Positions 3,563-44,671 are shown, numbered from the stretch's first letter. The stretch is 64,000 nt of DNA from Limisphaerales bacterium (GCA_014382585.1 JACNJL010000050.1:1-64000); one strand, 5' to 3'. The notes: a model not told the origin generated them from the letters alone. Program-made: numbers and translations.

Positions 3563-4863
3563 GCCAGCAGTTCCTTCACCACGCCGGAACTATCGCCATG
3601 GCGCTCAGTCTGAATGCCCAAACCTTGCAGCAGGGTCAGCCACACGTTGCAGAGCGGTGTGTCTTTCGGCAAAGCGAGGTGTTGGCCTAATTTCAAGTTG
3701 GCGCCGCCGCCGGTGAGTATGGTGGGACAGTTGTCGAGATAATGGATCGAACTAATATTCGAACCAAAGGCCAACGCGGTGTGATCGAACAGACTCGATC
3801 CGTCAGCTTCCTTGGTCGCCTTGAGCTTATCGATCAAGCCGGTCAGCAATTCAGCGTGCGCCTTGTCCCGCGCCTTGGAGGCCTCCATGCGTTCGCCGGG
3901 AGAATAGTGGCTGATGTTATGAGCGCTCAGAGTAACGCCCATGCTCTTCAATAATTCCTGACCGGGCAGGCGGTAGGTCAACACCCGTGTGCTGTCGGTT
4001 TGCAGGGCGGCCACGATAAGATTGTACATGATCTCGATTTCGTCCCTGCCCTTCAGCCCGGGCGCAGGCTCGGCTATGGGCGCCTTGGCCTTGGGCACGT
4101 CGAGCCAGTCTTCGTCCTTGCCGAGGCGGGTTTCGATATCGCGAATACCCTGGAAATATTCGTCGAGTTTATCGTTGTCGGTTTTGGTAAGCCCGCGCTG
4201 TACACGCTTGGCCTCCGTGAACACTGCATCCAACACACTACGTTTCTCAGCAATAGCCGCCTGCCTTTGAGCCAACGGGAGGTCATCGGCCGAAAACAGT
4301 TTATGAAAAACTTGTAGCGGATCATTCATACCTGCCACAGGTTTACCACGTTGATCCCACGACAAGGACAAGCCCGGCCCATGACCTGAGGCGCTGCCAT
4401 CACTACTATCCAACTGCATGGAAGCAAAGCGGGTATCCCGCCCTAGATTCTGGGCAATCACTTGGTCCACAGAAATGCTATTGGCCATGTTCTGACCGGG
4501 AACGGAGTAACGGTTGGCGCCGGTTAACCAAAAGGTACTACCCCAGTGAGCTTCATTGCTATACTGGTTGGAGCAACCCTGCAACACGGTGAAATCTTTT
4601 TTGTGCTGTGCCAAAGGCGCTAATCCTTCGGTTAATTTGTAGCCCGCTCCGGTGTCTTTTAAATTCGGATACCAGGTTTCCTTGGTGACTCCAAAACCCA
4701 TCCCCATGAAGACCGCCCGCTTAGGGATACCATCCGTTGCTTTAGGAGTAGGCGAGGCAAACATTCGGAACCCGATAGATTCCAATGCCGGTAACGCGAT
4801 AAGGGCTCCAGTGCCACGAAGAAAGTGACGACGATGTAGTTTGGTGCTCATAGTTTGATCCAT
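3559..4863 (-). CDS. DUF1552 protein, Tat-exported
   Basis: Protein of 434 residues with a twin-arginine signal (RRHFLRG, then a hydrophobic stretch ending near FRMFAS), so it is probably exported folded. It matches the DUF1552 family, whose hallmark is an HxxSHH-type motif; here the motif reads HNISHY. The conserved C-terminal glycine-rich block around TGGGANLKLGQ is present. The family has no established reaction. The gene sits directly upstream of the DUF1592 gene with a 4-nt overlap (ATGA), one of five such pairings in this window. The start at 4863 or the internal ATG four codons later (MSTKLHRR) are both possible. Confidence 0.88.
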   Translation of the reverse strand: MDQTMSTKLHRRHFLRGTGALIALPALESIGFRMFASPTPKATDGIPKRAVFMGMGFGVTKETWYPNLKDTGAGYKLTEGLAPLAQHKKDFTVLQGCSNQYSNEAHWGSTFWLTGANRYSVPGQNMANSISVDQVIAQNLGRDTRFASMQLDSSDGSASGHGPGLSLSWDQRGKPVAGMNDPLQVFHKLFSADDLPLAQRQAAIAEKRSVLDAVFTEAKRVQRGLTKTDNDKLDEYFQGIRDIETRLGKDEDWLDVPKAKAPIAEPAPGLKGRDEIEIMYNLIVAALQTDSTRVLTYRLPGQELLKSMGVTLSAHNISHYSPGERMEASKARDKAHAELLTGLIDKLKATKEADGSSLFDHTALAFGSNISSIHYLDNCPTILTGGGANLKLGQHLALPKDTPLCNVWLTLLQGLGIQTERHGDSSGVVKELLA

Positions 4864-4888: not shown

Positions 4889-5563
4889 CTAATTACACTC
4901 CCAAATCCTGACCGAGTCGAAAATAATTTCACACTCAGTTCCACCCTTGAAGGTAAATCTGTGCTTCCCGTTGGCCTTGGGGTTTATGATGGTGACCTTT
5001 TCATGCTCGTAAGTTCTACCCTTGCCGTTAACCACGACCCGAATCTTTCCCAATTCGTATTCGATCACCAGATCGATCCACTTGTTTAACGCCATCTCAG
5101 ATTCGGGCTCCGAAAAGGATGGCCCATCCGGAAGTTTGACTCTGTGACCCCCATCCTTTGAAATACCAAGATTAATCATGTGATGGCCGATCTGGAAAGA
5201 GGGGCGACCCGGAGTAAGTTCAGGCTTGGAAAACTTATAGCGTAAATGACAAACGAATTTCTCCGGAATTCGGTTGATATGAGCGACTGGCTCGAGCCCG
5301 AGATGATGATCCCTCTTCAAAACCTTGATCGCCTCCTCTTTTGTTTTGAAAAGAGGAGCGATGATTAATTTTCCATCCTTGATGCTCTTTCCCTTGGGTT
5401 GCCCCCAACGTTCCCGGTTCAGTTCACCATCAAAATCATCGGAGTAGACCAGCTTTCCGTTGTTAAATAGCTCGGACTTAAACTTGGGTTCTTTGGCATG
5501 GAGTTGCACCGAAAGCGTGACGAGAAAAGTAAGCGACCAGAATTTGATGTTGTTTAAGTTCAT
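4889..5563 (-). CDS. Secreted ConA-like lectin/glucanase-fold protein
   Basis: Protein of 224 residues with an N-terminal signal peptide (cleavage after LHA). The sequence has the look of a concanavalin A-like beta-sandwich related to DUF1080/heparinase-like lectin domains: an early YSDDF.G.L..ERW segment, a central strand pattern around FVCHLRYKF, and a C-terminal FDSVRIWE strand. Such domains bind or cleave polysaccharides, but I see no catalytic signature that separates binding from hydrolysis. It is followed after 25 nt by the DUF1552/DUF1592 pair and preceded by the conserved motif at 5571-5606, only 7 nt before its ATG. Family assignment is tentative. Confidence 0.7.
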   Translation of the reverse strand: MNLNNIKFWSLTFLVTLSVQLHAKEPKFKSELFNNGKLVYSDDFDGELNRERWGQPKGKSIKDGKLIIAPLFKTKEEAIKVLKRDHHLGLEPVAHINRIPEKFVCHLRYKFSKPELTPGRPSFQIGHHMINLGISKDGGHRVKLPDGPSFSEPESEMALNKWIDLVIEYELGKIRVVVNGKGRTYEHEKVTIINPKANGKHRFTFKGGTECEIIFDSVRIWECN

Positions 5564-5570
5564 GTTTTGA

Positions 5571-5606
5571 ATACAGGTCCTAGAAACCCATTAGGATTGG
5601 ACAAAA
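5571..5606 (-). promoter_or_regulatory. Conserved promoter/operator motif, copy 2
   Basis: On the minus strand this reads TTTTGTCCAA-N9-GTTTC-N2-GGACCTGTAT. The same blocks at the same spacing occur at 18763-18798 upstream of the sigma gene; 25 of 36 positions are identical, including 10/10 at both ends. It ends 7 nt before the ATG of the lectin-fold gene, so a transcript starting just downstream would be nearly leaderless. It could be the target of the co-encoded ECF sigma factor, or an operator, since GTCC and GGAC form a short dyad. Confidence 0.5.
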
Positions 5607-5665
5607 TATTTGATTATCTCTGTGCATTCTTGCCTTTACGATCGTGCGTAAAGGGCCGAGCCACC

Positions 5666-8275
5666 TCACTTCTTAAAAGCAGGATGCTTCGGATCCCCGG
5701 CAGAAATAAGATATGCCAGTAGATCGAAGACGTCATCTTTACTCATGGTATTGATCAGACCCGCCGGCATCATCGAAATACGCGAGGGTTCGATCGATGC
5801 CAGATCATTGACATCGACAAGGGTATTCGAACTGGGGTTCATCATATCCGTATTTACTTGGTAGCGATCCTCACTGAGATTCATGATGCGCCCACTGATC
5901 ACGCTTCCGTCTTTCATTTTAAAATTGGTCGCTCCGTATTGGTCACTGATCTCCTTGCCGGGATCGATGATGGCTTCAAGCAGGTCGTAGGCGCTGAACT
6001 TACCACCGGCAGCAGACAGATCAGGGCCGACCGCGCCCCCTTCCCCCTTAAAGCGATGGCAGACATAACACGCACCGGCGCGAGCCATTTTTCTACCATT
6101 CGCGAAGTCGCGCCGGGATTTTACTTCAGCATTCAAATCGCCGGCGAAATCCTTCAACGTCCAGTTCTTGACGAAGGATTGGGTCTCAAGCGTGAACTGA
6201 GGGATACTGCTCTTGGGTTGGGTCTGGATCAGTTTCTTGAGCGCAGGCGTCAGGTCTGCCTCAGGCACGGATTCCGTGGCATGCCTCTTTATGTCGGCCA
6301 GATAATTGGCAAGTCGCGCGCCGCCTTTGTAGTTTCCGGAAAGCACAAACCATCGGAAGTATGTCTCGCGCAGTTCAGGAGTCCAACCGTCCTGAAGGTA
6401 GCGGAGATTGAGGGCGTAGCCGATCTGCTCCTCCTGGCCGGATGCGTTCGTAAGCAACTTCATGCCTCGCTCGACGGCAAAGGGAGCATTCAAGAATGCT
6501 GCGATGGCGGATAGATCCCGGTTTTCTTCCGGCGTCCGAGCGGGGTAGATCCCACCAAGCCATTGGATTAATCTATCTTTTTCTTTCGGTTGCCCGCCGC
6601 GAGTCAATGCCAGGGTAACGCCGCGCAGCAGATCGAGACGTGTCTGGTGAGAGCTGGTCTGGTGGTAATTGATACTCATCGCCTTTTCAAAGATTTCCAC
6701 CGCCGAGTTCGTCGCGTCCACGCGTGCGAGTGCGATCAAAGCGGCAGTAGTGGTGACCGGGTTCGCCTCACCTTTGATCCGGCCCCTCCACTTCCCGACC
6801 GTTTGTTTCTCCAGCGCCGCCCGGGCTGCATGGCGAATACCGCGATCGGCTGAGCCCAATGAGTCCCAAATATGGTCTAGATCGGACGCGCTTGCAGCAG
6901 CTGCATCCCGCTGTAGATGGACCTCAAGTGAATGGCGGTCCTGTCGTCCTAATTTGCCGCCTGGGACAGATCGCGCTGGCGCAGTGGATTCGTTGCCGAT
7001 GTAGGTCACCCGATAGAGACCTGACTGAACGCGACGACCGCCAACCGTAAAGTACATGGCCCCATCATCAGGGTTAATGAGCAGGTCCGTGATCGGTAAG
7101 GGCTGGGCGGAGGCAAACTCTTCAACCGTTGCAGTATAAGTAGAGCCCTTAGGTTTCAGGTGGACGGCATAGAGTTTTCCGTAGGACCAATCACAGGCAA
7201 AAAAGGCGTTCTGGTATTTGGCTGGGAATTTCGCGCCATACCCGAAACAGACGCCAGTGGGTGACCCTGGGCCAACGTCAACCACGGCTCCGAAAGTGTC
7301 TGAGCAGAAATCCATGAACTTCCCGGAACCGGTCCGCCATCCATAGTCAGCGCCGTCAATAACGTGATTAATCCGCGTTGGGCGGTACCACGGCGTATTG
7401 AGATCCCATTCCATGTCGGCGTCATAGGTGAACAGTTCGCCTTCGCGATTGAAGGCAGCGTCGTACTGGTTACGGAAGCCGGTGGCGACAATCTCCCAAG
7501 TTTTTCCCTCGGGATCGATTTGGGCAATATGTCCTAGCGGAGCCTCGGCACCTTTCATGAAATGTTGCAGAGAGGGCAGAAGTTGATCTTCTCCCCACAC
7601 TTCAGGAACACGTGAATGAGTGTAATCTACCGGAACCTTGGTTTGGTTTCCAATGATGACGTAGAGGTGTTTGCCGTCAGGGGCAGGTATGATGGCATGT
7701 GGACCATGCTCACCGGCCGTATCACCGAGGGACTTAAGCTTAACGAGCTTGTCAAAGTTGTCGTCACCATCCGTATCAAGAAGACGATAAACGCCACACC
7801 CCATGGTGCTACTGCGCGAACTGACCACCACATAGAGACTGTCGAAAGCATAACAGATACCTTGTGCATGGCCGATCTTCGGAAGCTTAGCGAGTTCTCC
7901 CGTCAGAGGCTTGGGGTCCGTTCCAGTGATACTTTTCCGGGCCTTGGCTCCGACAATCGAATAGGTGATGGGCTGGATACTTGCGGGATCAACGCGTTCG
8001 CCCAACTTGGGAATCGGAAAGCGATAAAGCCCGCCATGTTGGTCACTAACGATCAAACGACCTTTGTCGTCCTGACACATGGCGACCCACGATCCCTGGT
8101 CCTCTCGTGGCACGGAATACAATAGCTCGATTTTGAATCCGTCGGGCAAACGAATCTGCTCCGGGGAAGTCGCACTGCGCTTGGCATCCGCGGAAATGGC
8201 GAAGTCTGGAGATACCGCAAAGAGAAGCCAGAAAACTGAAAGTAAGAATTTGATGAGAGTTCGTGAGTTTATCAT
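5666..8275 (-). CDS. PVC-type propeller/heme protein (putative membrane-bound dehydrogenase-like)
   Basis: Secreted protein of 869 residues with a signal peptide (FLLSVFWLLFAVSPDFAISA). The N-terminal ~420 residues look like the sugar-dehydrogenase-type beta-propeller of PVC proteins (LPDGFKIELLY, GH..QICYAFDSLYV). Next comes an alpha-helical repeat region. The C-terminal ~130 residues form the Pirellula/Verrucomicrobium-type heme-binding domain, with CYVCH near residue 735 and GAVGPDLSAAGG after it. This architecture is widespread in planctomycetes and verrucomicrobia; the substrate is unknown and oxidation of a sugar is inferred. The ATG overlaps the preceding sulfatase stop by 4 nt, so the two are co-translated. 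Confidence 0.85.
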   Translation of the reverse strand: MINSRTLIKFLLSVFWLLFAVSPDFAISADAKRSATSPEQIRLPDGFKIELLYSVPREDQGSWVAMCQDDKGRLIVSDQHGGLYRFPIPKLGERVDPASIQPITYSIVGAKARKSITGTDPKPLTGELAKLPKIGHAQGICYAFDSLYVVVSSRSSTMGCGVYRLLDTDGDDNFDKLVKLKSLGDTAGEHGPHAIIPAPDGKHLYVIIGNQTKVPVDYTHSRVPEVWGEDQLLPSLQHFMKGAEAPLGHIAQIDPEGKTWEIVATGFRNQYDAAFNREGELFTYDADMEWDLNTPWYRPTRINHVIDGADYGWRTGSGKFMDFCSDTFGAVVDVGPGSPTGVCFGYGAKFPAKYQNAFFACDWSYGKLYAVHLKPKGSTYTATVEEFASAQPLPITDLLINPDDGAMYFTVGGRRVQSGLYRVTYIGNESTAPARSVPGGKLGRQDRHSLEVHLQRDAAAASASDLDHIWDSLGSADRGIRHAARAALEKQTVGKWRGRIKGEANPVTTTAALIALARVDATNSAVEIFEKAMSINYHQTSSHQTRLDLLRGVTLALTRGGQPKEKDRLIQWLGGIYPARTPEENRDLSAIAAFLNAPFAVERGMKLLTNASGQEEQIGYALNLRYLQDGWTPELRETYFRWFVLSGNYKGGARLANYLADIKRHATESVPEADLTPALKKLIQTQPKSSIPQFTLETQSFVKNWTLKDFAGDLNAEVKSRRDFANGRKMARAGACYVCHRFKGEGGAVGPDLSAAGGKFSAYDLLEAIIDPGKEISDQYGATNFKMKDGSVISGRIMNLSEDRYQVNTDMMNPSSNTLVDVNDLASIEPSRISMMPAGLINTMSKDDVFDLLAYLISAGDPKHPAFKK

Positions 8276-9624
8276 TTTGCATTCTTTCTCTGCTTCGCTG
8301 TCGGAGATGGATCAACCACGGTTTCGAGATAAGTTTTAAGGCGTGCTTGTAGTTGCTTGGCTTTGTCAGCCTGTGTCGTGAATAGATCATTCTTTTCGGC
8401 GATGTCTTCAACTACATTGAAGAGTTTGGACGATTGAATTTCACGCTTAGCATTCACCTCTGCCAGCAGCTTCCATTTACCGGCCCGAATAGCCGCCATT
8501 CGCTGCCGAGGCCGAGAGAAAATCAGGCCATCAATCGGGCGTTTCACCGAATCGGTTTCCGGATCAGAAAAAAGAGGGACAAAGCTTCCGCCATCGAGTT
8601 CTTCGGAGAGATCACCTTTCCCTCCTGCCAATGCATAAAAGGTAGGTAGAAAGTCGTAGCCTGCCACTGGGACTCGGCAAACCGATCCCGCTTTAATCGA
8701 AGGGCCTCGAACTATTAAAGGTACGCGAATGCCCCCTTCGAGCAGGGAATGCTTGGCCCCGGACAAGGGAACGTTCGGCGCATGGCTCTTTGTATTTCCA
8801 CCGGGGACGGTGCCGCGGCCGCCGTTGTCCGTCGTGAAAACCACATAGGTATTGTCAGATATTCCCAAAGTATCCAATTCGTCGAGGAGCCTGCCGATGC
8901 CCCTGTCCAGCTCCTCAAGCATGCCGGCCCAACCTTGTGAATAAGCCCGATCAGGAGCGCCCTTTTTTTTATACTTTTCCAATGAGGCTTGCTGCAATTC
9001 CGTGCGCAAGTGCACGGCATAGTAGCTGACCTGCGCATAAAAGGGTTTGCCGACTTTGATTTGTTTGCGGATGAATTCGATCGACCGATCCGTGACTGAG
9101 CCAGTCCGTTTGGGATCTTCGACGATGTGGGCTGGCTGCATCTTGTCTGCCATACCTCCTGTGACATTTCCGGTGTGCCCGTCGCTCACGTCGTAGCCGC
9201 ACTCCTCCGGAGAAGAGATCATCTTCTCTCCCCACTTTCCGAAATGGGCACACTGATATTTAGGATTCGCCAGTTTTAGTGCTCGTGGCAGCGTCATATG
9301 ATCAGTCGGCACCCACTTGCTGGCGAATTCCGTTCCAGAACGAGCGGCACTCGTCCCGCAGAGGATGCTGCGCCGGGTCGGGGTGCAAAGCGGAGCGGGT
9401 GAATAGCCCCCAGTAAAACGCATTCCCTCTTTCGCTATCCGATCCATCGCCGGAGTATGAAGATAGCTGGACCCGGTCTGTGGATTGTCTGGATCCATCA
9501 AACCCGACCGCTGACTCCAACCCTGGTCATCGGTCAGAATCAGAATGATATTTGGTGAATCAGCCTGAAGGGCTGTAGTAACCCCAAACAGGGTGGCTAA
9601 TAGGCAAGAGAGTTTTTTAATCAT
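8272..9624 (-). CDS. Sulfatase (CTPTR type)
   Basis: Type I sulfatase of 450 residues with a Sec signal (cleavage after LQA). The metal-binding TDDQGW and the formylglycine signature CTPTRRSILCG are visible, with C80 the residue converted to formylglycine. Further conserved blocks are GKWGEKM, FTTDNGG and the C-terminal RAGKWKLL. It would hydrolyse sulfate esters outside the cytoplasm; the substrate cannot be read from sequence. It overlaps both neighbours by 4 nt, between another sulfatase and the propeller/heme gene. Confidence 0.93.
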   Translation of the reverse strand: MIKKLSCLLATLFGVTTALQADSPNIILILTDDQGWSQRSGLMDPDNPQTGSSYLHTPAMDRIAKEGMRFTGGYSPAPLCTPTRRSILCGTSAARSGTEFASKWVPTDHMTLPRALKLANPKYQCAHFGKWGEKMISSPEECGYDVSDGHTGNVTGGMADKMQPAHIVEDPKRTGSVTDRSIEFIRKQIKVGKPFYAQVSYYAVHLRTELQQASLEKYKKKGAPDRAYSQGWAGMLEELDRGIGRLLDELDTLGISDNTYVVFTTDNGGRGTVPGGNTKSHAPNVPLSGAKHSLLEGGIRVPLIVRGPSIKAGSVCRVPVAGYDFLPTFYALAGGKGDLSEELDGGSFVPLFSDPETDSVKRPIDGLIFSRPRQRMAAIRAGKWKLLAEVNAKREIQSSKLFNVVEDIAEKNDLFTTQADKAKQLQARLKTYLETVVDPSPTAKQRKNAK

Positions 9625-10889
9625 TTATTCTCCACTTTGTTCGGATCCCACCAACCGTTCATCCTGGCCTGCAGCTCGGAAACCACTGCTGCATGCTCCG
9701 TGGACAGATCCTTAGTCTCGTGAGGATCCGCCAACAGGTCAAACAACTCCTGATTCTGATCGGGGTACTTTCGGTTGTGACCGCCCGCGTTTGGTCTCTC
9801 CTTCGGCAGGGGATCCTGGTAGGTGATGAGCTTCCATTTTCCCTGGATGACGGAGCGGGTCCACAAACTTTTACCAGGCTCGTGAGCCGAAATCATGTTG
9901 TGGGAGAAGTTGTTAAAGAAGATGGCTGTTCGGTCGGAAACGGCCTTATTATCAAGCAGGTTGATTCCGGGCATTGCCTTGGGGACCTTGACTCCGCAGG
10001 CAGTGAGAATCGTCGGAACCACGTCGATGTTGCTAGCCAGCTTCATCTCCTCTTTGTGCGCTTTGATCCTGGCGGGCCAGCGGGCGATGATCGGAGTCCG
10101 GATACCGTTTTCGTAGGGGGACGCCTTGCCGAACTCATTCCAGCCATTGTCGGCTAGGTAGAGCACTAGGGTGTTGTCGTCGACACCCTTGTCTTTGAGG
10201 TTTTTCATCAGGTCGCCGCAGGTTTCGTCGAGCCATTCCACCATGGCGTAGTACTTGGCCTTCTTGATCGGTTGAACGTCGGCGTATTTTTCCAGAAGAC
10301 GCTGCGGTGGGTTGTGGGGCGTATGCGGCAGAAACGGCGCGTACCAGACGAAGAAGGGCTTCTTGTTCTCGATCGATTGATCCATGAAGTCGTAGATGGG
10401 CTTCATGGTTTTGCGGCCTATGTCGAGGGACTTTCCGCCGTGTCGGCCCGTTTCTCCGTTGTCGTGGGTAAAGCCAGCGGCAGCAGGTTTCCCCATCCAA
10501 TATTTTCCGGTATGCATGGTGTTGTAACCGGCATCGGCCAACAACTTCGGCAACATGGGGTTCTCGAAGAAACGATCGAGCCAGACGTCGCGATCCTTTC
10601 CTTTGACGGGATCGTTGCCGGTGATGCCGTGCTGATGGGTGTATAGCCCCGTCAACATGGTGGCCAGGGACGGACTGCAGAGCGCAGTGGTGACGTAGCC
10701 ACGGGTGAAGGTCAGACCTTCCGCGGCGAGTTGGTCGATATGGGGGGATCGAATCTTTTCATTGCCCAGGAATCCGTAGTCGGTCCAGGCATGATCATCG
10801 CTGATGATGAGAATGACGTTCGGTCGCTCGGCCAAGAGCGACACCGGAAACAGCAAGGCGAATAGAATAAGATATGTGAAGGTTTTCAT
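9621..10889 (-). CDS. Sulfatase with variant maturation motif (CSPSL)
   Basis: Sulfatase-family protein of 422 residues. I place the start at 10889 (MKTFTYLILF...), which gives a clean signal peptide ending LLA; an upstream in-frame ATG at 10946 would put a charged tail before it. ISDDHAW, HTGKYWMGKP and LYLADNGW are typical. The signature region reads ALCSPSLATMLTG: the cysteine (C71), proline and TG are kept, but the usual arginine of CxPxR is leucine. Whether it is matured to formylglycine is therefore uncertain, although variants of this sort occur among PVC sulfatases. The stop overlaps the next sulfatase start by 4 nt. Confidence 0.9.
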   Translation of the reverse strand: MKTFTYLILFALLFPVSLLAERPNVILIISDDHAWTDYGFLGNEKIRSPHIDQLAAEGLTFTRGYVTTALCSPSLATMLTGLYTHQHGITGNDPVKGKDRDVWLDRFFENPMLPKLLADAGYNTMHTGKYWMGKPAAAGFTHDNGETGRHGGKSLDIGRKTMKPIYDFMDQSIENKKPFFVWYAPFLPHTPHNPPQRLLEKYADVQPIKKAKYYAMVEWLDETCGDLMKNLKDKGVDDNTLVLYLADNGWNEFGKASPYENGIRTPIIARWPARIKAHKEEMKLASNIDVVPTILTACGVKVPKAMPGINLLDNKAVSDRTAIFFNNFSHNMISAHEPGKSLWTRSVIQGKWKLITYQDPLPKERPNAGGHNRKYPDQNQELFDLLADPHETKDLSTEHAAVVSELQARMNGWWDPNKVENK

Positions 10890-10968
10890 GAGATTTCTCT
10901 GGGTATGTTTAAAGGGTCCAATTCCGCTGCGTCTAGGTCGGTTCATTTTGCAGGGGATTGCTGGATGG

Positions 10969-11700
10969 CTATTCTTCCAGGATGGTTTTGATGAAGCCGG
11001 CTAACTCCTCCACGGAGATGCCACCGGATTTGTCCTTGTCTGCTCTCTTGAGGAAGGTGTCGATGTGAGCGGAGGAACCTAGGAATGCAACGAACTCCTG
11101 CTTGTTGAGAGCGCCATCGGAATTGGCATCAAATTCGGCGTGCCACTGGGCGGGAGTTTTGCGGGAGATGCGATACCACTTGATGCCTTTGAGCCTGGAT
11201 TCGAATTCCTTGAGATTCAGAGTTCCTGATTTGTTCCTGTCGGATTTTCCAAACCCAATCGGACCATGTTTGGGGGAACGGTAAATGGCGGTGGCGTATT
11301 CGACATAGGAAACCTCGCCGTCGCTATTGGTGTCAGCCATCTTGTGCAACTCAGCGGCCGTCATCTTGAGCATCTCAGCGCTGGGTTTGAGCTTTTCCTT
11401 CGGGATCGGAAGCGTGACCCAGAGTTGATTGCAGCGCCCCTTGTCATCGACGTGTGCGCGAACGAAGAAGCCCGGTTTGATTTCCTTTTTCGCCTTCAGG
11501 AAGCTGACGTAGTTGATCTTCAACTTGTCGCCTAGCGTGAAGGTCCGGCTTTTCCTGCGGTAATTTACAGTGACGGTGCTTCCGTCGACGGATTCGACAA
11601 CACCATGTAGTATCCCCCCCTTCTTTTCCTGGGCGGCAATTTCGCTCGAGGCAAAGGTCAGGCAGACAACAACAAGGCTGATAGTCAGGTGGGTTTTCAT
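10969..11700 (-). CDS. Secreted four-EF-hand protein
   Basis: Protein of 243 residues with a signal peptide (cleavage near AAQ). Residues 30-100 form a small beta-rich domain (LHGVVESVDGSTVTVNYR...). Residues 120-243 hold four 12-residue calcium loops at about 123-134 (DTNSDGEVSYVE), 154-165 (DRNKSGTLNLKE), 191-202 (DANSDGALNKQE) and 221-232 (DKDKSGGISVEE). All have acidic residues at positions 1 and 12. It probably binds calcium in the periplasm or outside the cell. It lies between an LRR-protein gene and two sulfatase genes in the sigma-led operon. A role as structural or sensing partner for calcium-dependent enzymes is inference. Confidence 0.85.
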   Translation of the reverse strand: MKTHLTISLVVVCLTFASSEIAAQEKKGGILHGVVESVDGSTVTVNYRRKSRTFTLGDKLKINYVSFLKAKKEIKPGFFVRAHVDDKGRCNQLWVTLPIPKEKLKPSAEMLKMTAAELHKMADTNSDGEVSYVEYATAIYRSPKHGPIGFGKSDRNKSGTLNLKEFESRLKGIKWYRISRKTPAQWHAEFDANSDGALNKQEFVAFLGSSAHIDTFLKRADKDKSGGISVEELAGFIKTILEE

Positions 11701-11763
11701 GGTTTCATCTTATTGTATTCTAGTTTTAAAGTTTAATAGGACTCGGTCAGTCAAAAGGGTCGG

Positions 11764-13092
11764 TCATTTCTCGTTTTCAAACCTCTTGGACACAAGCAGT
11801 TTGCAGTCAGGCAGGGCTTTCTGAAGACTGGCCAGGGCCGGTCGGATCCCTTTTTTGTCATCCCGATAGGTGAAGGCATCGGAGAAATCAATGACTTCCA
11901 AGTTCTTCAGCCCGGTAAGTTTGTCCAGGCTCTCGGGGGAAAATTCCTCACAATATCGCAGGCTAAGTTTCTTCAAGGCGGTCATCTTGGCCAGATTGTC
12001 AAAGCCTTCGTCTCTGATTCCGCCTCCCCGCGAAATCTGCCCTAAGTCCAGTTCGCTCAGATGTTTTAGCTTTACCAGGTGCTGAAGACCGGGCCCTTTG
12101 ATCAGACTGATCCCTTCCAAATCCAGGTGCTCCAGATGCTCCAGTCGGGCCAAGGCTTCTAGTCCCTCATCCGTAAATCCGTTTGAGTTGCCCATCAGGT
12201 TCAGAGATGTAAGGGCTTTGAGTTTTGACAGGGTTCCCATGGACTCGTTGCCAAGACTGCAGAACTGCAGGGATAGCTTCGTCAGGTCCTTCAACCCGGT
12301 TAGGTGCTCAAGCGATGGTTTCGGGAAATCACATGACCACAGATGGAGGTTTTCCAGGGCCGGCATCCATTTCACCAGGCAGAGAAAGTCATCGTCGGTC
12401 AGGGTCAGATCATTCAGGCGCAATTGGGTCAGCTTGGCAAATTCCTTCGCCTTCGTCTTGGAGAACTGCTTGGGGTCCAAGGTGCGTAGCCGTTTGAGGA
12501 ATGCCCCCTGCGTCAGGTGCAGCCCACGCTTGCGCCGATCCTCCTCAGTGCGCTGGGCAATCGCCTTGGCTTCAATCAGTCGCGTTGCCTCGGCCTTGTC
12601 GATTTTCTTTAACAGAAGCAGTGACCGCACCGGGCCACTCACGCCCGGCGCCACCGCGCCATACAGATGCTTCCACTCGATGACGACCTGGTCGCCGGTC
12701 TTAAGCGTTTTGATATACGCACCGAGCACCAAGTCGCCTATGGGTTTGCGGTGGAAATCAGTGACATGAACCGAGTATGTCCGTTGCTTATCGCCCTTCC
12801 CTATCTTCTGGTAGTGCAGGTAGTCGGTTATTTCGAAGTTCGCGTATTCCCCCGAGCTCCCACAACGATCCGGGCAACTCCCCGTCGAGCCCCTGCACGT
12901 GTGAAACTTCACGTCCTGGAATGTGGCGATCGCCTTGTGCTCCACCAGCACCTTGAGCTTGTCGTTGTCCGGCATCTTGCCGACGTAGGCCTTGGGTGGC
13001 TTCGAGGGGGCTGGGACATCCTCGGTGGCGTACGATACGCTACCAATGATCAGGCAGAAAGCAACAAGGATGAGTGTCAGATTGGTTTTCAT
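11764..13092 (-). CDS. Secreted leucine-rich-repeat protein with novel N-terminal domain
   Basis: Protein of 442 residues with a signal peptide (cleavage near YAT). Residues ~30-170 form a domain I do not recognise, holding H64, C66, C73 and C77 (HTCRGSTGSCPDRC), a possible metal site or disulfide cluster. Residues ~210-430 are at least seven ~24-residue leucine-rich repeats of the bacterial LxxLxLxxC/N type (e.g. LTKLSLQFCSLGNESMGTL, LTSLNLMGN, LEHLDLEG). LRRs usually mediate protein binding. In this operon it may scaffold the exported DUF1592/DUF1552 proteins, which is inference only. Confidence 0.82.
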   Translation of the reverse strand: MKTNLTLILVAFCLIIGSVSYATEDVPAPSKPPKAYVGKMPDNDKLKVLVEHKAIATFQDVKFHTCRGSTGSCPDRCGSSGEYANFEITDYLHYQKIGKGDKQRTYSVHVTDFHRKPIGDLVLGAYIKTLKTGDQVVIEWKHLYGAVAPGVSGPVRSLLLLKKIDKAEATRLIEAKAIAQRTEEDRRKRGLHLTQGAFLKRLRTLDPKQFSKTKAKEFAKLTQLRLNDLTLTDDDFLCLVKWMPALENLHLWSCDFPKPSLEHLTGLKDLTKLSLQFCSLGNESMGTLSKLKALTSLNLMGNSNGFTDEGLEALARLEHLEHLDLEGISLIKGPGLQHLVKLKHLSELDLGQISRGGGIRDEGFDNLAKMTALKKLSLRYCEEFSPESLDKLTGLKNLEVIDFSDAFTYRDDKKGIRPALASLQKALPDCKLLVSKRFENEK

Positions 13093-13127
13093 AAAATTGA
13101 TTTTTTGGCGATGATTAGGATCAGATA

Positions 13128-15905
13128 TTACTTCGATTGAAACTGCTTGGCTTGCACGAGGGCGTGGACGAATTCACGCAGGGCGTAGTTCTTGTTTTTG
13201 GCTGAGCTCATGATGCCCAGCGCAAGGTCTTCATCGGTGAAGCCGAACGGGCGACCGAGACCGTACTCGATCAGGGCTTCCGTGAAGCCATGGGCGAATT
13301 CCTCCTGATGTTTGGTGGCAATCAACTCACGCAGTTCAATGAAGTCGGCAAATGCCGGGCCGTCGTGGAACGCGCCAGAGGTGTCGATGGGGGTGCCGGT
13401 TCTACTGGGCACCATATTGCCTTTTCTGTTCTTAGTGTATCGGTATTCCTTGCTGCGCCATTTGCCGGCGGCATCGAAGTTTTCCAGGCCAAAGCCGATG
13501 GGATCGATCTTGCGATGGCAGCTGGCGCACTGAGCTTCCTCCATGTGGGCGGCGAGTTTCTGCCGCTTGGTGAGGGGCTTGTCGTCGAGGCGCGAAAGCT
13601 GCGGCACATTGGCCGGTGCCGGGGGAGGCGGCGAGTGCATAAGGTGGCGCAGCACCCAGGACCCGCGCTCAACCGGGCTGCTTTGGATGCCGTCGCTGCC
13701 CATGGCATGGATCGCAGCCATTCCCAGAAGTCCACCGCGCGGCGAATTTTCCGGAAGGCTGACTTTGCGGTAGTGATCGCCAACCACGCCGTTTAGTCCG
13801 TAGTGAGCGGCCATGAGACCATTGACGACGACGTAGTCGCTCTTGAGAAGGTTCTGTACTTGTCCCTGATCCTTCGACCGCAACAAGTGGAGGATCGATT
13901 GGTAAACTTCTTCCCGCGCTGCCGCTCGCGTGCTTTCATCGAATTCGCGATGTCGGGCAACATCGAATTGGAAGAAATCCAATCGCTTCATGTCCAGCCA
14001 CTGATGAGCGAGACCAGAAACGAAGTGGTGCGCTCTCGGGTCTCGAATCAAACGATCCACTTGAGCACGTAAGACAGCAGGGTCACGCAGCTGCCTCGCT
14101 TTCGCCAACTCCAATAGCTGGGAATCGGGCGGAGAACTCCATAGGAAATACGACAGTCGCACTGCCAGTTCGAGATCATCCAGGGCACGAGGCACACCGT
14201 CCTGACCGGACTCTTTCATGAAGAGAAACCGGGGAGACGCCAGGATCATGCTGAGCGGGGTGCGAATCGCGATGTCGAACTTTTGATCAATCACCAATCG
14301 GTTTTTGTAGACTTCGACGAGGGAGTCGATGAATTCGGGCGTGGGTCGGCTTTCTCGAAATGCTTTGACCGCGAACTGGTGAAGGATGTTCCTGGCCCGA
14401 TTCAACTCCGACGGAGATCCTCCGGCAGGGTTGGCGTCAAAGATCGCCTCAAGCGGACTAGGTTGTCCCTGTGGCAACGGGCCTTCGATCTCAACCCAGT
14501 CGACCCAGATTGAGGGGGCATGGCCATAACCATTTTCATTCATCAAGGGGTTGAAGAATTTCTTGAGTAAGGGGCCCCACGCAGGCTGACGTTCTCTAAT
14601 CGCAAACTGCCGTTTCGTATCCTTGTTCACCGTCACCTGGGTTTCGATCAGTTTTGGCTCGGCCGGTCTGCCGGTCACGTGCAGCGCCTTCAGGGGGAAG
14701 CCATCCAGTAGCCCTCTGGAAACCGTTTCGGGGTGACCCAGTTCGAGGAAGTGACGAAACGCCGGCGCCTCGTGGGTGACCCCCGCCTTGATTCGCACCG
14801 TGTAGGTTCCGACGGGCATGTCGTTGGGCGGGTTTAGGACGACCATGGTGGAACCGGCCGTCAACTGAATCCAGGTCCCTGTATCATTGTAGGGAAGGTC
14901 GGCGTAGTGCTTACTGTAGGAAGCATACTTGGGAAAGAACTTCGCGGCATGGCCAAAATTCGGGAACCCATGGTCCCTCGGGTTGGGCGCTCCTTTCAGC
15001 TTCTTAAGGTGAGGACCAATTGCACGGTAAAGCTGCCCGCGGTTACCCTTGGTGCCCAACCGTGCTTCGAAGCCTTTGTTCTCTGGTCGAGCGAGCGCCT
15101 TGTCCATTTCCGCATCCAGTGCCGCATAGCGTTTCAGGTAGTCGTCATTTCGTTTGACTCCCTGTCTCAAAGCGACATTGAGCGTTTTTTCCGGTTCCAC
15201 GCGATAGACAAAAGGCTTGGCACCTCGAGCAGCTCTTCGTTCATAGAACTCATCGATGGCGTGGCGTCCGAGTTTCAGATACTGCTCGAACTTGTCACTG
15301 GAAATAAAAAGTGAAGATCCGACCGTATCGAAGTCCCCGGAACTTCCATCATCGGGAAGGAGTTCCTTACCGAGTCGCACACCCAGCAAGCTCTCGATAG
15401 TGTTCTGGTAGTCGCGCTTGTTGAGCCGCCGCATGGTGATCTTGCCACCCGAATCACCGAGCGCCTTGCGGGCGGTCACCATCGTGAGCGCCAGGTCATC
15501 CAGGAAATCCGCCTTCTCCGCTTGTTCGGGCTGCTTCTTCTTTTTCGGCGGCATCTCCCCGGAGTTCAGGGCATTGAGGACTTTCTGCCAGGTCTCCGCC
15601 TGCTCGATCGTTTCAATATCAAATGAAAGGCCTTCGAGATTGACGCTGCCCTTCTCGGTATCGGCATCGTGACAATCCATGCAATAGGCATCCAGAAAGG
15701 CCGCGTGCTTTTCGGGGAATACGACTCTTGGTTTGGCGACGGAAGCAGTTGCCATCTGGGCTTCGTCCGCATTGGAAGTTCCTTGCGAATCGTCACTGGG
15801 GACACCTTGCGGGTGGTTGCCTTTGTTTTCCTCCCCGCAACCGGTCAGCAAGGTGACGAAGTACACCGCAAACATCGTGCCAAGGGTAAGGCGTGTAGGT
15901 TTCAT
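13128..15905 (-). CDS. DUF1592-family diheme lipoprotein
   Basis: Protein of 925 residues with a lipoprotein signal (lipobox LLTGC, C23), so it is probably anchored to a membrane. It has planctomycete cytochrome C (CMDCH at 75-79), DUF1587 (RRLNKRDYQNTIESLLG), one copy of the ~260-residue beta-rich domain that is duplicated in the paralogue at 92-3562, DUF1595/1592 (FLWSSPPDSQLLELA), DUF1588 with CASCH near residue 793, and C-terminal DUF1585 (YGLGRPFGFTDEDLA). Two c-type hemes are expected. Function is unknown. It follows its DUF1552 partner by 20 nt. Confidence 0.9.
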   Translation of the reverse strand: MKPTRLTLGTMFAVYFVTLLTGCGEENKGNHPQGVPSDDSQGTSNADEAQMATASVAKPRVVFPEKHAAFLDAYCMDCHDADTEKGSVNLEGLSFDIETIEQAETWQKVLNALNSGEMPPKKKKQPEQAEKADFLDDLALTMVTARKALGDSGGKITMRRLNKRDYQNTIESLLGVRLGKELLPDDGSSGDFDTVGSSLFISSDKFEQYLKLGRHAIDEFYERRAARGAKPFVYRVEPEKTLNVALRQGVKRNDDYLKRYAALDAEMDKALARPENKGFEARLGTKGNRGQLYRAIGPHLKKLKGAPNPRDHGFPNFGHAAKFFPKYASYSKHYADLPYNDTGTWIQLTAGSTMVVLNPPNDMPVGTYTVRIKAGVTHEAPAFRHFLELGHPETVSRGLLDGFPLKALHVTGRPAEPKLIETQVTVNKDTKRQFAIRERQPAWGPLLKKFFNPLMNENGYGHAPSIWVDWVEIEGPLPQGQPSPLEAIFDANPAGGSPSELNRARNILHQFAVKAFRESRPTPEFIDSLVEVYKNRLVIDQKFDIAIRTPLSMILASPRFLFMKESGQDGVPRALDDLELAVRLSYFLWSSPPDSQLLELAKARQLRDPAVLRAQVDRLIRDPRAHHFVSGLAHQWLDMKRLDFFQFDVARHREFDESTRAAAREEVYQSILHLLRSKDQGQVQNLLKSDYVVVNGLMAAHYGLNGVVGDHYRKVSLPENSPRGGLLGMAAIHAMGSDGIQSSPVERGSWVLRHLMHSPPPPAPANVPQLSRLDDKPLTKRQKLAAHMEEAQCASCHRKIDPIGFGLENFDAAGKWRSKEYRYTKNRKGNMVPSRTGTPIDTSGAFHDGPAFADFIELRELIATKHQEEFAHGFTEALIEYGLGRPFGFTDEDLALGIMSSAKNKNYALREFVHALVQAKQFQSK

Positions 15906-15925
15906 AGATCGTAAGGGATTATTGA

Positions 15926-17212
15926 TTACGCCTGCAACTGCGACACCACACCCGTGCTGTCGCCGTGCCGATCCACGTCAACACCGACACCCTGCAACAT
16001 AGTCAGCCAGACATTGTTCAGCGGTGTGCCTTCATTGAGCACGAGGTTCTGCCCCAGTTTGAGATTGGCACCGCCACCGGAGATCAAGGTGGGTGGATTG
16101 TTGAGATAATGAATCGAACGAATGTTGGAACCAAAGGCCATCGCAACGTGATCAAACAGACTGCTGCCATCGGCTTCCTTGGTGGCTTTTAACTGATCGA
16201 TTAAACCGGCCAACAGTTCGCTATGTGCCTTGTCCCTTAATTTGGAAGACACTTCCGTTTCGCCTCCTGGACGATAATGACTCACATTATGAGGATTTCC
16301 GCCGGCACCGATACTGGACAGCAGGCGTGACCCGGGTTCGCGATAGGTAATGACCCGAGTGTTATCCGTCTGGATTGCCGCCACCATGAGCTTGTACATC
16401 ATCTCGATTTCGCTGCGCCCTACCAACGCGGCATCCGGTTCCTCCAGAGGAGACTTTGATTTGGGCACGTCCATCCATTTTTCCGATTTGCTCAACCGGG
16501 TTTCGATGTCGCGGATGCTTTGAAAGTACTCGTCCAGCTTGTCGGTATCACTCTTCGTCAAACCCTTCTGCATGTCCTTTGCCTCGATCATCACGGAATC
16601 CAGGACACTGCGTTCCTCCGTCAACATTGCCCGACGCTGAGCAAGGGGGATGTCATCTGCCGCAAAGAGCTTGAGGTAGGTTTCCATCGGGGAATTCCAC
16701 GCCGAAAGCGGTTTTCCACGTTGGTCCCATGCCAGCGAATTCCCAGGACCATGCCCATTCCTGTCGTTGGCGTCACTAGCCAGTTGGATGGAGGTGTAGC
16801 GGGTGTGCTCGCCAAACTGCGCGGCGGCAACCTGATCGGCGGAGATGGTGTTGGAAAAGGACTGCCCCGGGGTGCCGTATTGATTCGCGCCCGTCAGCCA
16901 ATACGTGCTTCCCCAGTGCGCCTGACGGCTGAATTGATGTTTGCAGCCCTGGACAATCGTAAGGTCCTTCTTGTGACGAGCCAAAGGCTTTAGCCCCAAG
17001 GGCAGTGTATAGCCCGATCCCTTGTCATTGATGTCGGGAAACCAAGTCTCCGAGGTGACGCCGTAGCCAATGCCCATGAAGATCATTCTCTTGGGAGGCG
17101 TTGCCGCAGCGGCCGAGGCAAGGCGACGAAAGCCGATGGACTCCAATGCCGGCAGCGCGATGAACGCTCCGGCTCCACGTAGAAAGTGACGACGATTGAA
17201 TGAGGCGTTCAT
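15926..17212 (-). CDS. DUF1552 protein, Tat-exported
   Basis: Protein of 428 residues, closely similar along its length to the DUF1552 protein at 3559-4863 (shared WGSTYWLTGANQYGTPGQS, SIHYLNNPPTLISGGGANL). It begins with a twin-arginine signal (NRRHFLRGAGAFIALPALE). The family motif reads HNVSHY. It sits 19 nt after the anti-sigma gene and 20 nt before its DUF1592 partner, making it the first structural gene of the sigma-led operon. Its reaction is unknown. Confidence 0.88.
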   Translation of the reverse strand: MNASFNRRHFLRGAGAFIALPALESIGFRRLASAAAATPPKRMIFMGIGYGVTSETWFPDINDKGSGYTLPLGLKPLARHKKDLTIVQGCKHQFSRQAHWGSTYWLTGANQYGTPGQSFSNTISADQVAAAQFGEHTRYTSIQLASDANDRNGHGPGNSLAWDQRGKPLSAWNSPMETYLKLFAADDIPLAQRRAMLTEERSVLDSVMIEAKDMQKGLTKSDTDKLDEYFQSIRDIETRLSKSEKWMDVPKSKSPLEEPDAALVGRSEIEMMYKLMVAAIQTDNTRVITYREPGSRLLSSIGAGGNPHNVSHYRPGGETEVSSKLRDKAHSELLAGLIDQLKATKEADGSSLFDHVAMAFGSNIRSIHYLNNPPTLISGGGANLKLGQNLVLNEGTPLNNVWLTMLQGVGVDVDRHGDSTGVVSQLQA

Positions 17213-17231
17213 ATTCGGAAATTCGTTTCGT

Positions 17232-18215
17232 TCATTTGCTCACAACTTCAATCGGCAGTTTCGGTTGTTTGATCACGGTGAGTTGGACGTCGTCCACAAA
17301 GAAACCGCCTAACGGAACAGGCGTCTTGGAGTTGTAACCCGCGGTGGCGGCCACTGCGATGAGGGCAACCGTCGCATCCGATTCCAGGATGCAGGAGGCG
17401 GAAATGGTCGCCGCGTCGCTTCCCGGTTGAAGCTTGATGGATTTCTTCCCAAGCGCCTCGGCCTGCCGAACCACCTGAGGCCAAGTTTCACCAATCGACT
17501 CGGGCTCTCCCTGAAACAGAAAGATGCGGAGGCTTGCTTTGGGATTGCGTAGTTCGTTATCGGAAAGAGATGCATCACGTCGAAAACGCGCTGAAAGTTT
17601 GAGAGAATAATTTCCCTGCGAAGGTTCCGCTTCCAACTGTTGGCGCAGGGCAGTGAGGTCGACCAACTGGAATACGGAGCAGTTGGAAGCAAAGCCGTCG
17701 GGATCGCTCTTCACGTTGGCGGTCCGGACAAATCGCAGAACCTTGTTTCCATCCGCCTCCTTGACCACCTCGGCGGGATTACCGGCCCATTCGCCGAAGC
17801 GTACCGGGAACTGCGTCGGAGTCGGCCCTTCGGCCATGGTCTCGAAATCACCGTGGGCGATGTCGAACACCCGCGCTTCCGATTTGGGCGAACCGATTGC
17901 CCAAATCATGCCGACACCGAGCAGCCCCACGAAAATTCCCGCTACCAAACCCGCCGCGATCTGGCGGGGCCAAGCAAACTGCCCGACCACCTTTTGCTGT
18001 TCCGGCGCAGCTGCTCCCACCTCCGGTTCTGATTCCACGTCCAAGGCCAGCGTTTCATCGGCCAACGCACCGTGTATCTGTGCGGCCTTGAGATATTGCG
18101 ATCGCACCTCGGCATCGTCCTCAATCCCGGTGGAAAGCGCCTGCGCCTCCTCCTCTGTCGTTTGACCGTCCAGATGTTTCTGGATGAGTGCGTCCCAATC
18201 TTGAGAAGGTCTCAT
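17232..18215 (-). CDS. Membrane anti-sigma factor
   Basis: Protein of 327 residues. The N-terminal ~80 residues are acidic and helical (DWDALIQKHLDGQTTEEEAQALS), as in PVC anti-sigma/FecR-like regulators. A single membrane segment spans about 86-108 (IAAGLVAGIFVGLLGVGMIW), followed by a ~215-residue extracytoplasmic beta-rich domain ending in VKQPKLPIEVVSK. The start overlaps the sigma-factor stop by 4 nt, which strongly suggests it controls that sigma factor. It would sense an extracytoplasmic signal; the ligand is unknown. Confidence 0.82.
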   Translation of the reverse strand: MRPSQDWDALIQKHLDGQTTEEEAQALSTGIEDDAEVRSQYLKAAQIHGALADETLALDVESEPEVGAAAPEQQKVVGQFAWPRQIAAGLVAGIFVGLLGVGMIWAIGSPKSEARVFDIAHGDFETMAEGPTPTQFPVRFGEWAGNPAEVVKEADGNKVLRFVRTANVKSDPDGFASNCSVFQLVDLTALRQQLEAEPSQGNYSLKLSARFRRDASLSDNELRNPKASLRIFLFQGEPESIGETWPQVVRQAEALGKKSIKLQPGSDAATISASCILESDATVALIAVAATAGYNSKTPVPLGGFFVDDVQLTVIKQPKLPIEVVSK

Positions 18216-18733
18216 GTCATTTCCTTTCTAATCTGCCTTTGGATACACGTCTGCAAATCGAGGCGTGTGCGTTGGATTGCCTTGTAAACTGCCTCGACCG
18301 ACCGACCGCCTTGTTCGGCAAGCCACTCCACACTTCGGTTCTCGTGGTAATATCCCTTAATCAAGGCATGCTGTTTCTCGCCAAGTTTTTGCATACAGGT
18401 GGCCAAATGCCGTTCCACCTCAACGGCAAACCCGGACTCGCCAGCCATTTCTCGTTCCAGCACCGCCATCGCCTTCTCGGAGAGCTGGGCGCGACGCTGC
18501 GCACGCGCGAGAAAGCGCCGCGTCTCAATCCGCGCAAACCCCATCGCCCAATTCACGAACGGCCGTTGCGGGTCATAAGAGTCAAACTGCCGCCACAAAG
18601 CCACGGCCGTCTCCTGTAGAATATCCCGTGCGTCTGAACGGTTCGGCACCATCACAAGCACCGAACGCAACATCACCGGCTCCGCCTCTAGAAGCAGCCG
18701 CGTGAAACGCTCGTGGTTGTTTTGATGATCCAT
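18212..18733 (-). CDS. ECF RNA polymerase sigma factor (Rhodopirellula/Verrucomicrobium type)
   Basis: Protein of 173 residues, counting from ATG 18733 (MDHQNNHERF); an in-frame ATG at 18757 would add eight residues. Sigma region 2 covers about 10-80 (RSDARDILQETAVALWRQFDSYD, RPFVNWAMGFAR). Region 4 covers about 115-170 (LGEKQHALIKGYYHENRSVEWLAEQGGRSVEAVYKAIQRTR), a helix-turn-helix that reads the -35 element. It heads an operon containing its anti-sigma factor and secreted polysaccharide-related genes. The motif at 18763-18798 just upstream suggests autoregulation. Confidence 0.92.
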   Translation of the reverse strand: MDHQNNHERFTRLLLEAEPVMLRSVLVMVPNRSDARDILQETAVALWRQFDSYDPQRPFVNWAMGFARIETRRFLARAQRRAQLSEKAMAVLEREMAGESGFAVEVERHLATCMQKLGEKQHALIKGYYHENRSVEWLAEQGGRSVEAVYKAIQRTRLDLQTCIQRQIRKEMT

Positions 18734-18762
18734 GGTCGTTTTGAGTAGCCAAGCCAATTTCT

Positions 18763-18798
18763 ATACAGGTCCGCGAAACAGTCCGAATTTGGACAAAA
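18763..18798 (-). promoter_or_regulatory. Conserved promoter/operator motif, copy 1
   Basis: On the minus strand this reads TTTTGTCCAA-N9-GTTTC-N2-GGACCTGTAT, about 30 nt before the sigma gene ATG. It shares 25 of 36 positions and identical block spacing with the copy at 5571-5606. That conservation in otherwise dissimilar intergenic DNA suggests a common promoter, probably for the ECF sigma factor itself, or an operator. The spacing of TGTCC to CTGTAT (22 nt) is long for a standard -35/-10 pair. Confidence 0.5.
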
Positions 18799-18989: not shown

Positions 18990-20315
18990 ATGTCCGCCTC
19001 GACAACCCTTTTAGAAGATAAACTTCACGAGTATCCCCAACAAGACGTGATCGACGGATCCGGTGGAGGATCCGCGGCGGTTCTTGATGACTGCCTGGAC
19101 CAGAACGGCGGAGTGTTGCAACTTCTGCACCGTTACGCCGGCCGAACATTTTGTACCCCCGGGAAACGGATTCGCCTCGATGAGGAGTCCTACTATCCGA
19201 ATTACATGGGCGGTACAGGGCTCGATGAACTCTGGATGTGCTGCACTGCTCCTATCGTGACAGGAGTCATCGACACGCGCACGGGTAAGGCCCCGTTCCG
19301 CGAAGGAGAAGCTCACGTCCTTACTCCCGGCGGCCAAGTCATCTCGCTGCAGGATTTGATCCTCGCCAATCCGAAAGCGGTTATGGGGGAGAAGGTCACG
19401 GCCTTTGCCGAAGAACTGTACGGTGACCCGACCTGGCCGATCGTGTCCAAGAAGTTCGACAACTTGAATCCGATCCCACATCACCTCCACTGGGCGAAGT
19501 GGGAAGTCTACGACATCAACTCCTTCGACAATCCCGGTGTCAGTCCGTCGCATTATCACACCACGGCCATGGGGCTGTATCCGTTTGTGACCAAGGACGA
19601 TTTTCTCGCCTGCATGAAGCGTTTCGGAAAGGGCGAGTACAACGGCGTCCGGCACTTGTCGCCGCACACTATGATGCAGCTGGATAACGGCTTCGTGATG
19701 CCGAACGGTGTCCTGCACTCACCGACCGACCTCTGCACACACGAGCTGCACGTTACGATGGATGAGCACTTCCTCGCAGAGGACCTCACGCTTGATGGAA
19801 GCATCGGAGCTGCCGATGCGTTCTACGCCTGCCGGGAAGAGGACTACCCGAAGGACCGGCACGAAGACTGGGAGTACTTGGTTGAAAAGTTCGACTTCGA
19901 AGCCAACCAAGACCCGGACTTCGTAAAGAAGAACTCGCGTCCAGCGGTCACCGCCGAAGAATTCGCAGGTGACGGGGTAGACGCACAGTGGATTGTCTAC
20001 GGAGATTTCCTTGGCGACCAGAAAGCCTCGATTCTTCGTTTAACGGTGGAGCCCGGCAACAAGACCACTTTCTGCCCCGAGAGTCCGGCCTTATTCCATA
20101 CCAATGGTGGAAGCGGCCGGGTTGGAAAGTTCGCAGTGAACTACCACCAGAACATGAAGCTTGGCGAACTCTACCCCGAGATCGGCTTCATCACTCAATC
20201 CGCGCTCAACAACGGCGGCGTGGAAATTGAAAACACCGGCTCCGAACCTCTGGTGTTGACCTTCGACTTCCCGCAAAACGCCCATTCCCGAACACCCGGC
20301 GTCTCAGCCCTTTAA
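18990..20315 (+). CDS. Cupin protein, possibly sugar-phosphate isomerase-like
   Basis: Protein of 441 residues without a signal peptide, so cytoplasmic. Histidine-rich segments PIPHHLHW (H164, H165, H167) and SPSHYHTTAMG (H188, H190) suggest a cupin metal site, and the C-terminal part (VEPGNKTTFCPES...LFHTNGGSGRVG) resembles a second cupin fold. The general look recalls class I mannose-6-phosphate isomerases, but the match is not strong enough to name the reaction. It is divergent from the sigma operon and its 3' end overlaps the convergent DUF1552 gene by 12 nt. Confidence 0.65.
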   Translation: MSASTTLLEDKLHEYPQQDVIDGSGGGSAAVLDDCLDQNGGVLQLLHRYAGRTFCTPGKRIRLDEESYYPNYMGGTGLDELWMCCTAPIVTGVIDTRTGKAPFREGEAHVLTPGGQVISLQDLILANPKAVMGEKVTAFAEELYGDPTWPIVSKKFDNLNPIPHHLHWAKWEVYDINSFDNPGVSPSHYHTTAMGLYPFVTKDDFLACMKRFGKGEYNGVRHLSPHTMMQLDNGFVMPNGVLHSPTDLCTHELHVTMDEHFLAEDLTLDGSIGAADAFYACREEDYPKDRHEDWEYLVEKFDFEANQDPDFVKKNSRPAVTAEEFAGDGVDAQWIVYGDFLGDQKASILRLTVEPGNKTTFCPESPALFHTNGGSGRVGKFAVNYHQNMKLGELYPEIGFITQSALNNGGVEIENTGSEPLVLTFDFPQNAHSRTPGVSAL

Positions 20316-42687: not shown

Positions 42688-42877
42688 GCCACGCAGTGGC
42701 TGGGTAACTGTAGCCCCTTGCTTCAGCATGGGGGTTTCCAATCGCCAAAATTGAGAGCGCCCTGTAAGGGCGCAGAAAATTTACGCATCCTCCAGCGCCC
42801 TTACAGGGCGCAACCTCGGTTCGTGGCTTTTCCCCGGGTTAAAACCCGGGGCTGAAATTGCTTTGCCACTGCGTGGC
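42688..42877. repeat. Nested composite palindrome, left of sulfatase
   Basis: The 355-nt gap 42628-42982 holds this structure and no gene. The outer pair is GCCACGCAGTGGC (42688-42700) and its exact complement GCCACTGCGTGGC (42865-42877). The inner pair is GCGCCCTGTAAGGGCGC (42757-42773) and its exact complement (42795-42811), each also a hairpin. Between them lie an imperfect palindrome at about 42714-42734 (CCCC...GGGG around GCTTCAGC) and a perfect 20-nt palindrome CCCCGGGTTAAAACCCGGGG (42832-42851). The architecture matches the element at 44672-44872. Confidence 0.85.
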
Positions 42878-42982
42878 ATTCGTCGTGAGTTGAGTAATTA
42901 CAGTCAAAAGCTTTGCGCCTTTTCGTTGGGCGGATTAGTTTCCGGCTCGCGTGGGTTGAGACCATTTTACTCGAATTTCTCT

Positions 42983-44625: not shown

Positions 44626-44671
44626 ACGTTCACGGATATTTTTACAAACCGGCCTTACCAAACCCAAGAGT

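Follow-up and report, generated by a model that had tools for sequence, protein, structure and literature searches.

The locus studied here raises the question of why the same 36-base element should stand both at the head of a sigma-factor-led operon and again inside it. The window, a stretch of 64,000 nt from a Limisphaerales bacterium (GCA_014382585.1 JACNJL010000050.1:1-64000), carries two copies of TTTTGTCCAA-N9-GTTTC-N2-GGACCTGTAT on the minus strand, one at 18763-18798 before an ECF sigma gene and the other at 5571-5606 before a gene for a lectin-like protein. An earlier note had read the pair either as this sigma factor's own promoter, which would serve for autoregulation and as an internal start, or as an operator; its account of the two copies, their strand, identical spacing and 25/36 identity, is exact, the identity being made up of 10 + 5 + 10 matches with 0/11 elsewhere. 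Here we argue from sequence comparison that the element is very probably the -35/-10 promoter of the TIGR02989 ECF sigma factor encoded behind the first copy, which would provide autoregulation and a second start for the lectin-DUF1552-DUF1592 genes.

Two copies of the element in one operon

In random sequence of matching composition and 64-kb length, 0-5 pairs of shared 10-mers at equal spacing occur and, as such pairs are not uncommon by chance, the case for the element rests on comparison and not on the repeat itself. We scanned the organism's own genome (3.70 Mb, 70 contigs, 95% complete) for the 36-mer with up to 3 mismatches and found two sites, both of them the window copies, and none in the reversed control. 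For the relaxed core TTGTCCA-N17-GRACCTG with up to 2 mismatches, only the two window sites were found at 0-1 mismatch, while the other 11 matches all had 2 mismatches and equal background (18 in the control). The absence of the motif from other intergenic regions, claimed from part of the window, thus holds for the whole genome, and the genome-wide scan proposed at the time returns this locus alone, both sites lying before secreted-protein genes or their operon. Neither in the spacer nor in the flanks are the two copies related, the identity just outside the motif being 0.20-0.36.

The first copy, predicted from the scans and the orthologue comparison to be an autoregulatory promoter (P1, 18763-18798, minus strand), has its -35 box TTTTGTCCAA at 18789-18798 and its -10 box GGACCTGTAT at 18763-18772. 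The core of the -35 box is TGTCCA and that of the -10 box (GGACCTGT) is G[G/A]ACCTG, with 17 nt between TTGTCCA and GRACCTG. From ECF geometry, transcription is predicted to start at about 18757-18760, and 29 nt lie between the motif and the start codon (ATG) of the sigma gene (18212-18733, minus strand). The 173-aa product matches the profile TIGR02989 (Sig-70_gvs1, the Rhodopirellula/Verrucomicrobium family) at 125.0 bits, passing the curated cut-off of 124.55; it consists of sigma2 and sigma4 domains only, Sigma70_r2 scoring above its cut-off and Sigma70_r4_2 below (20.8 versus 25.7), and its predicted recognition helix reads ...EAVYKAIQRTR.... On the other side of P1, a divergent gene (18990-20315, plus strand) encodes a 441-aa protein that has no Pfam or NCBIfam match and is 85-97% identical to proteins adjoining the same sigma gene in G004, L043, L105, L123 and L150.

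The sigma gene overlaps by 4 nt a gene for a 327-aa protein (17232-18215, minus strand) with an N-terminal domain (W7-E54), a hydrophobic, predicted transmembrane segment at about 85-107 and a predicted jelly-roll outer domain, for which no Pfam or NCBIfam family was matched. Seven orthologues have the N-terminal block and the transmembrane segment in common, and in the orthologue of L046 the same block is joined on the outside to FecR (PF04773) and LamG domains, an exchange of outer domains that is the pattern expected of anti-sigma factors. We consider the protein likely to be the anti-sigma factor. A model of its outer part, of modest confidence (pLDDT 63.5), resembles galactose-binding-like jelly rolls (CBM4, CBM16, CBM61 and Fbs1; Foldseek E about 1e-6 to 1e-5), and because the model is only modest we infer, and go no further, that the signal is probably a glycan bound by this domain.

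Behind the predicted anti-sigma gene follow, all on the minus strand, genes for a DUF1552 (HXXSHH) protein (copy a, 15926-17212), a DUF1592/1588/1587/1585 + PSCyt1 protein (copy a, 13128-15905), a leucine-rich-repeat protein (11764-13092), an EF-hand protein (10969-11700), sulfatase A (9621-10946), sulfatase B (8272-9624) and a PVC-type heme-binding CxxCH protein (5666-8275; TIGR02603, with TIGR02604 below cut-off). From the sigma gene through this heme protein the gaps measure at most 63 nt. The largest gap in the gene run, of 102 nt, comes next and holds the second copy, the predicted internal promoter P2 (5571-5606, minus strand; -35 box 5597-5606, -10 box 5571-5580). Only 7 nt separate the P2 motif from the ATG of the first gene behind it (4889-5563, minus strand), which encodes a secreted concanavalin-A/lectin-like protein of 224 aa with a weak LamG/alginate-lyase-like match; the predicted start at 5565-5568 would lie 2-5 nt before this ATG and give a near-leaderless mRNA. 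A DUF1552 protein (copy b, 3559-4863) and a DUF1592 protein (copy b, 92-3562) complete the run on the same strand. A scan found no sigma-70 promoter at P2. Upstream of P2 in the same gap lies an 8-bp hairpin, CCUUUACG-N6-CGUAAAGG (5633-5654, minus strand), which we rejected as a terminator, as it has no U tract and is not significant. Elsewhere in the window, several long near-perfect inverted repeats occupy intergenic DNA at 44670-44870, after 42863-44599.

The composition of the operon varies among relatives. Two orthologous loci (L045, L047) carry a DUF1552 gene directly behind the sigma/anti-sigma pair whose product is closer to window copy b (79% and 76% identity) than to copy a (65% and 62%), and G004 has a copy of sulfatase B, 96% identical, directly behind the anti-sigma gene. 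These gene orders indicate that the genes lying between the sigma/anti-sigma pair and copy b can be exchanged, and P2 may keep copy b under the control of the sigma factor.

Conservation of the boxes across the sigma family

Next we compared the regions upstream of related sigma genes. All sigma orthologues examined (64-97% identity) have TTGTCCA-N17-G[G/A]ACCTG upstream, in the same orientation and at constant spacing, with the boxes 20-70 nt before the ATG and a variable spacer and flanks. The pattern is present in 7/7 non-redundant upstream regions (shuffle mean 0.04), over which the information per column reaches 1.93 bits in the -35 box and 1.77 in the -10 box, compared with 0.80 for the spacer and 0.46 for the flank. 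Both window copies match this independently derived consensus, which lifts them beyond chance. Of the motif as first described, the two end boxes stand, with TTGTCCA(A) + GRACCTG as the conserved unit, while the middle GTTTC is not conserved beyond the closest relatives.

At 40-55% identity of the sigma factor, TGTCCAA is kept and the downstream half is changed: 15-16 nt after TGTCCAA stands GGAAGTA (B-type, 11/11), GGACTGG or GGATATA. TGTCC + GGA was found in 11/11 and 4/4 of these distant upstream regions, against shuffle means of 0.05 and 0.02. In a sister clade, TCGGCAA-N15-GGA takes its place (6/9, 0.01 expected), with TCGTTAA in two members. In the sigma tree, the sigma factors with A-type promoters form one supported group and those with B-type promoters another (SH-aLRT 97 and 98). 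The predicted recognition helix of the sigma factors with TGTCCAA reads YKxxQR and that of the sigma factors with TCGGCAA or TCGTTAA reads Y(K/Q)xLHR; the exception is L012, with a TGTCCAA-like site and S at the Q/H position. This suggests a specificity rule in which a single recognition-helix position would pair Q with TGTCCAA and H with TCGGCAA, a correlation that shared ancestry inflates. In the B-type sister group, two loci of G534 (L145, L140) carry copies of the B-type promoter, one upstream of a GH10 xylanase gene that lies divergent to the sigma gene and one upstream of an esterase gene, which suggests polysaccharide-degrading targets. At L065 (G107), an intact B-type promoter is followed by a sigma gene with an altered C-terminal end that diverges inside the recognition helix, possibly through sequencing error or decay.

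The distribution of the motif follows that of the sigma factor: it was found only in G000, G004 and one remnant among 20 genomes of the family and in the organism's own genome alone among 388 of the phylum, and it is missing from relatives without this sigma factor. Furthermore, a search for TTGTCCA-N17-GRACCTGT in 260 genomes of the family of G662 returned 11 perfect sites in 8 genomes, and none in the control. Ten of them stand before sigma genes or what remains of such genes; this group includes G664:C46, where the site and a sigma head come before another gene. The eleventh is the only perfect site in the MAG G897 and stands upstream of a gene whose product is orthologous to the window lectin (51/76 identical, 67%), about 97 nt from the ATG; the spacer and flanks of this site are unlike those of the window. 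An orthologue of the lectin gene with the same boxes indicates that P2 is conserved as a site of its own, with an independent gene as a target. Upstream of distant lectin homologues (29-34% identity), no motif was convincingly present. Sites with one mismatch in relatives are near background (27, with 19 in the reversed control) and were therefore not used, with the exception of a candidate further target in G660, which has a cognate sigma factor: here a one-mismatch promoter (TTTTTTGTCCAAAA...CGACCTG; L116, motif 223-253) precedes a MotA/TolQ/ExbB gene.

Across sites, the distance from box to ATG ranges from 7 to about 100 nt and the orientation is always toward the gene, as fits a promoter, and the sequence features expected of an autoregulated ECF promoter, namely two conserved boxes, fixed spacing, free spacer and flanks and further sites at putative targets, are present. 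Collectively, the two-site scan, the boxes at fixed spacing in the orthologues and the lectin orthologue of G897 strongly support the earlier proposal of autoregulation plus an internal start. We assign the boxes to this sigma clade with high confidence, and recognition by this very sigma factor is likely.

The promoter might be read instead by a paralogous sigma factor of this genome, or by several, and the genome does encode at least 5 other ECF genes. In addition, an intact A-type sigma gene was not found in the assemblies of G897, G898 and G665 or in G017, though the promoter is kept; these may be incomplete MAGs or may use another sigma factor. (G017 was rejected as an independent orthologue, being a rearranged remnant in which the promoter and sigma head adjoin the convergent gene g441.) However, the nearest paralogue in the organism's own genome is only 35% identical to the window sigma factor and has no TGTCC upstream, and the promoter subtype goes with this sigma clade and does not occur where the clade is lacking, so we regard a paralogous reader as improbable. 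Even smaller is the probability we give to an operator, in which a dimeric repressor or activator would bind a GTCC-N18-GGAC dyad upstream of the two genes. In each window copy the centres of GTCC and GGAC do lie 22 bp apart, but GGAC is replaced by GAAC in three orthologous promoters (L046, L047, L048), so that the dyad is gone there, and by GGAAGTA in the sister group; moreover, the arms show no symmetry past 4+4 bases, the conserved positions are asymmetric and the operon holds no regulator gene besides sigma/anti-sigma. With neither the dyad nor GTTTC conserved, the operator suggested earlier is unsupported. Two copies that are due to chance, or to recent duplication of a functionless repeat, are hardly credible: equally spaced 10-mer pairs are not rare in 64 kb, but both copies agree with the consensus that diverged orthologues yield, the lectin orthologue of G897 has the same boxes, and a recent duplication would need later selection on exactly the boxes, given the unrelated spacer and flanks. 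An RNA leader or translation-control element, which the position just upstream of start codons might suggest, is scarcely to be entertained when the distance to the ATG varies from 7 nt at P2 to about 97 nt at the G897 lectin gene with boxes and spacing constant and neither the spacer nor a dyad is conserved.

Promoters joined to truncated sigma genes

Having settled on a promoter of this sigma clade as the preferred reading, we turn to the sites that are left without a complete sigma gene. In the lineages of five relatives, an intact promoter is fused to a truncated sigma gene, mostly before secreted-enzyme operons. G664:C15 matches the intact locus of G662 at 95% up to sigma codon 64 and then continues into a ThuA-DUF1552-DUF1592 operon, and in G898:C16 a 110-bp block of promoter and sigma head, 96% identical to G888, is followed by DUF1549-DUF1501-sulfatase. 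The promoter and about 7 sigma codons precede an LTD/chitobiase-C-domain gene in G662:C209 and G664:C46, in G641:C35 a perfect B-type promoter is followed by a sigma pseudogene with an internal deletion and then by an esterase gene, and the promoter with about 20-40 sigma codons is found in G017 and G665. Intact sigma genes are present elsewhere in the genomes of G662, G664 and G641. As these are draft assemblies and some contigs end nearby, single cases may be misassemblies.

A tentative account, which we put forward as a possibility, is that the regulons of this sigma clade grow by decay of sigma genes: the gene would be duplicated or rearranged and lose its body, after which the promoter, still intact and joined to a short head, would drive downstream secreted-enzyme genes in trans under the remaining paralogue. 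P2 would then have arisen long ago in the same way and have lost its sigma head by erosion. A further junction, in a contig binned as Pirellulales (L049, JAKVCC010000013.1), joins a verrucomicrobial-looking sulfatase end and a sigma head to a 2-hydroxyacid dehydrogenase gene; its place in a planctomycete bin reflects transfer or mis-binning.

A proposed circuit and its relation to known ECF systems

Under the promoter reading, the membrane-anchored protein encoded at 17232-18215 would hold the sigma factor inactive until a ligand, probably a glycan, on its carbohydrate-module-like outer domain releases it. The sigma factor with RNA polymerase would then fire P1 and raise its own level, on a transcript that would also encode the anti-sigma factor, DUF1552/DUF1592, the leucine-rich-repeat and EF-hand proteins, the two sulfatases and the heme protein. 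P2, 13 kb downstream, would be fired too, producing a second unit of lectin, DUF1552b and DUF1592b that starts nearly at the ATG, and the regulon in this genome would essentially be P1 and P2.

Autoregulation is the rule for ECF operons, with about 55% of ECFs predicted to be autoregulated and FecI-like ECFs as the stated exception, and canonical ECF promoters have the boxes AAC...CGT (PMC8103513). By this criterion TTTTGTCCAA and GGACCTGTAT have neither the canonical AAC nor CGT (PMC8103513). The locus resembles RpoE-RseA-type operons in having the sigma gene first, an overlapping gene for a partner with one transmembrane segment, its own promoter upstream and targets in the operon, but differs in its boxes (TGTCCAA/GGACCTG rather than AAC/CGT) and in a regulon of apparently two sites at one locus. 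A link to FecI/FecR is seen in the L046 orthologue, where the N-terminal anti-sigma domain is the one paired with FecR and LamG; however, membership of that system was rejected for the window, whose partner protein has no FecR match, whose operon encodes no TonB receptor and whose sigma gene carries its own promoter.

In the literature searched, no published promoter was found for the TIGR02989 family, though the predicted motifs of the main ECF classification may include the present one. The promoter thus appears to be undescribed for this verrucomicrobial sigma family, and we did not find the non-canonical boxes, the two-site regulon or the pattern of sigma-gene remnants described.

Planctomycetes and Verrucomicrobia encode ECF sigma factors in large numbers and, with most of the species uncultured, few of the targets are known. 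Two boxes that define the promoter of one clade make its regulon predictable genome by genome, at one to three sites each, and they connect this sigma clade with operons for sulfatases and DUF1592/DUF1552 proteins. Should the promoters that outlived their sigma genes prove active, they would represent a concrete route by which regulons grow.
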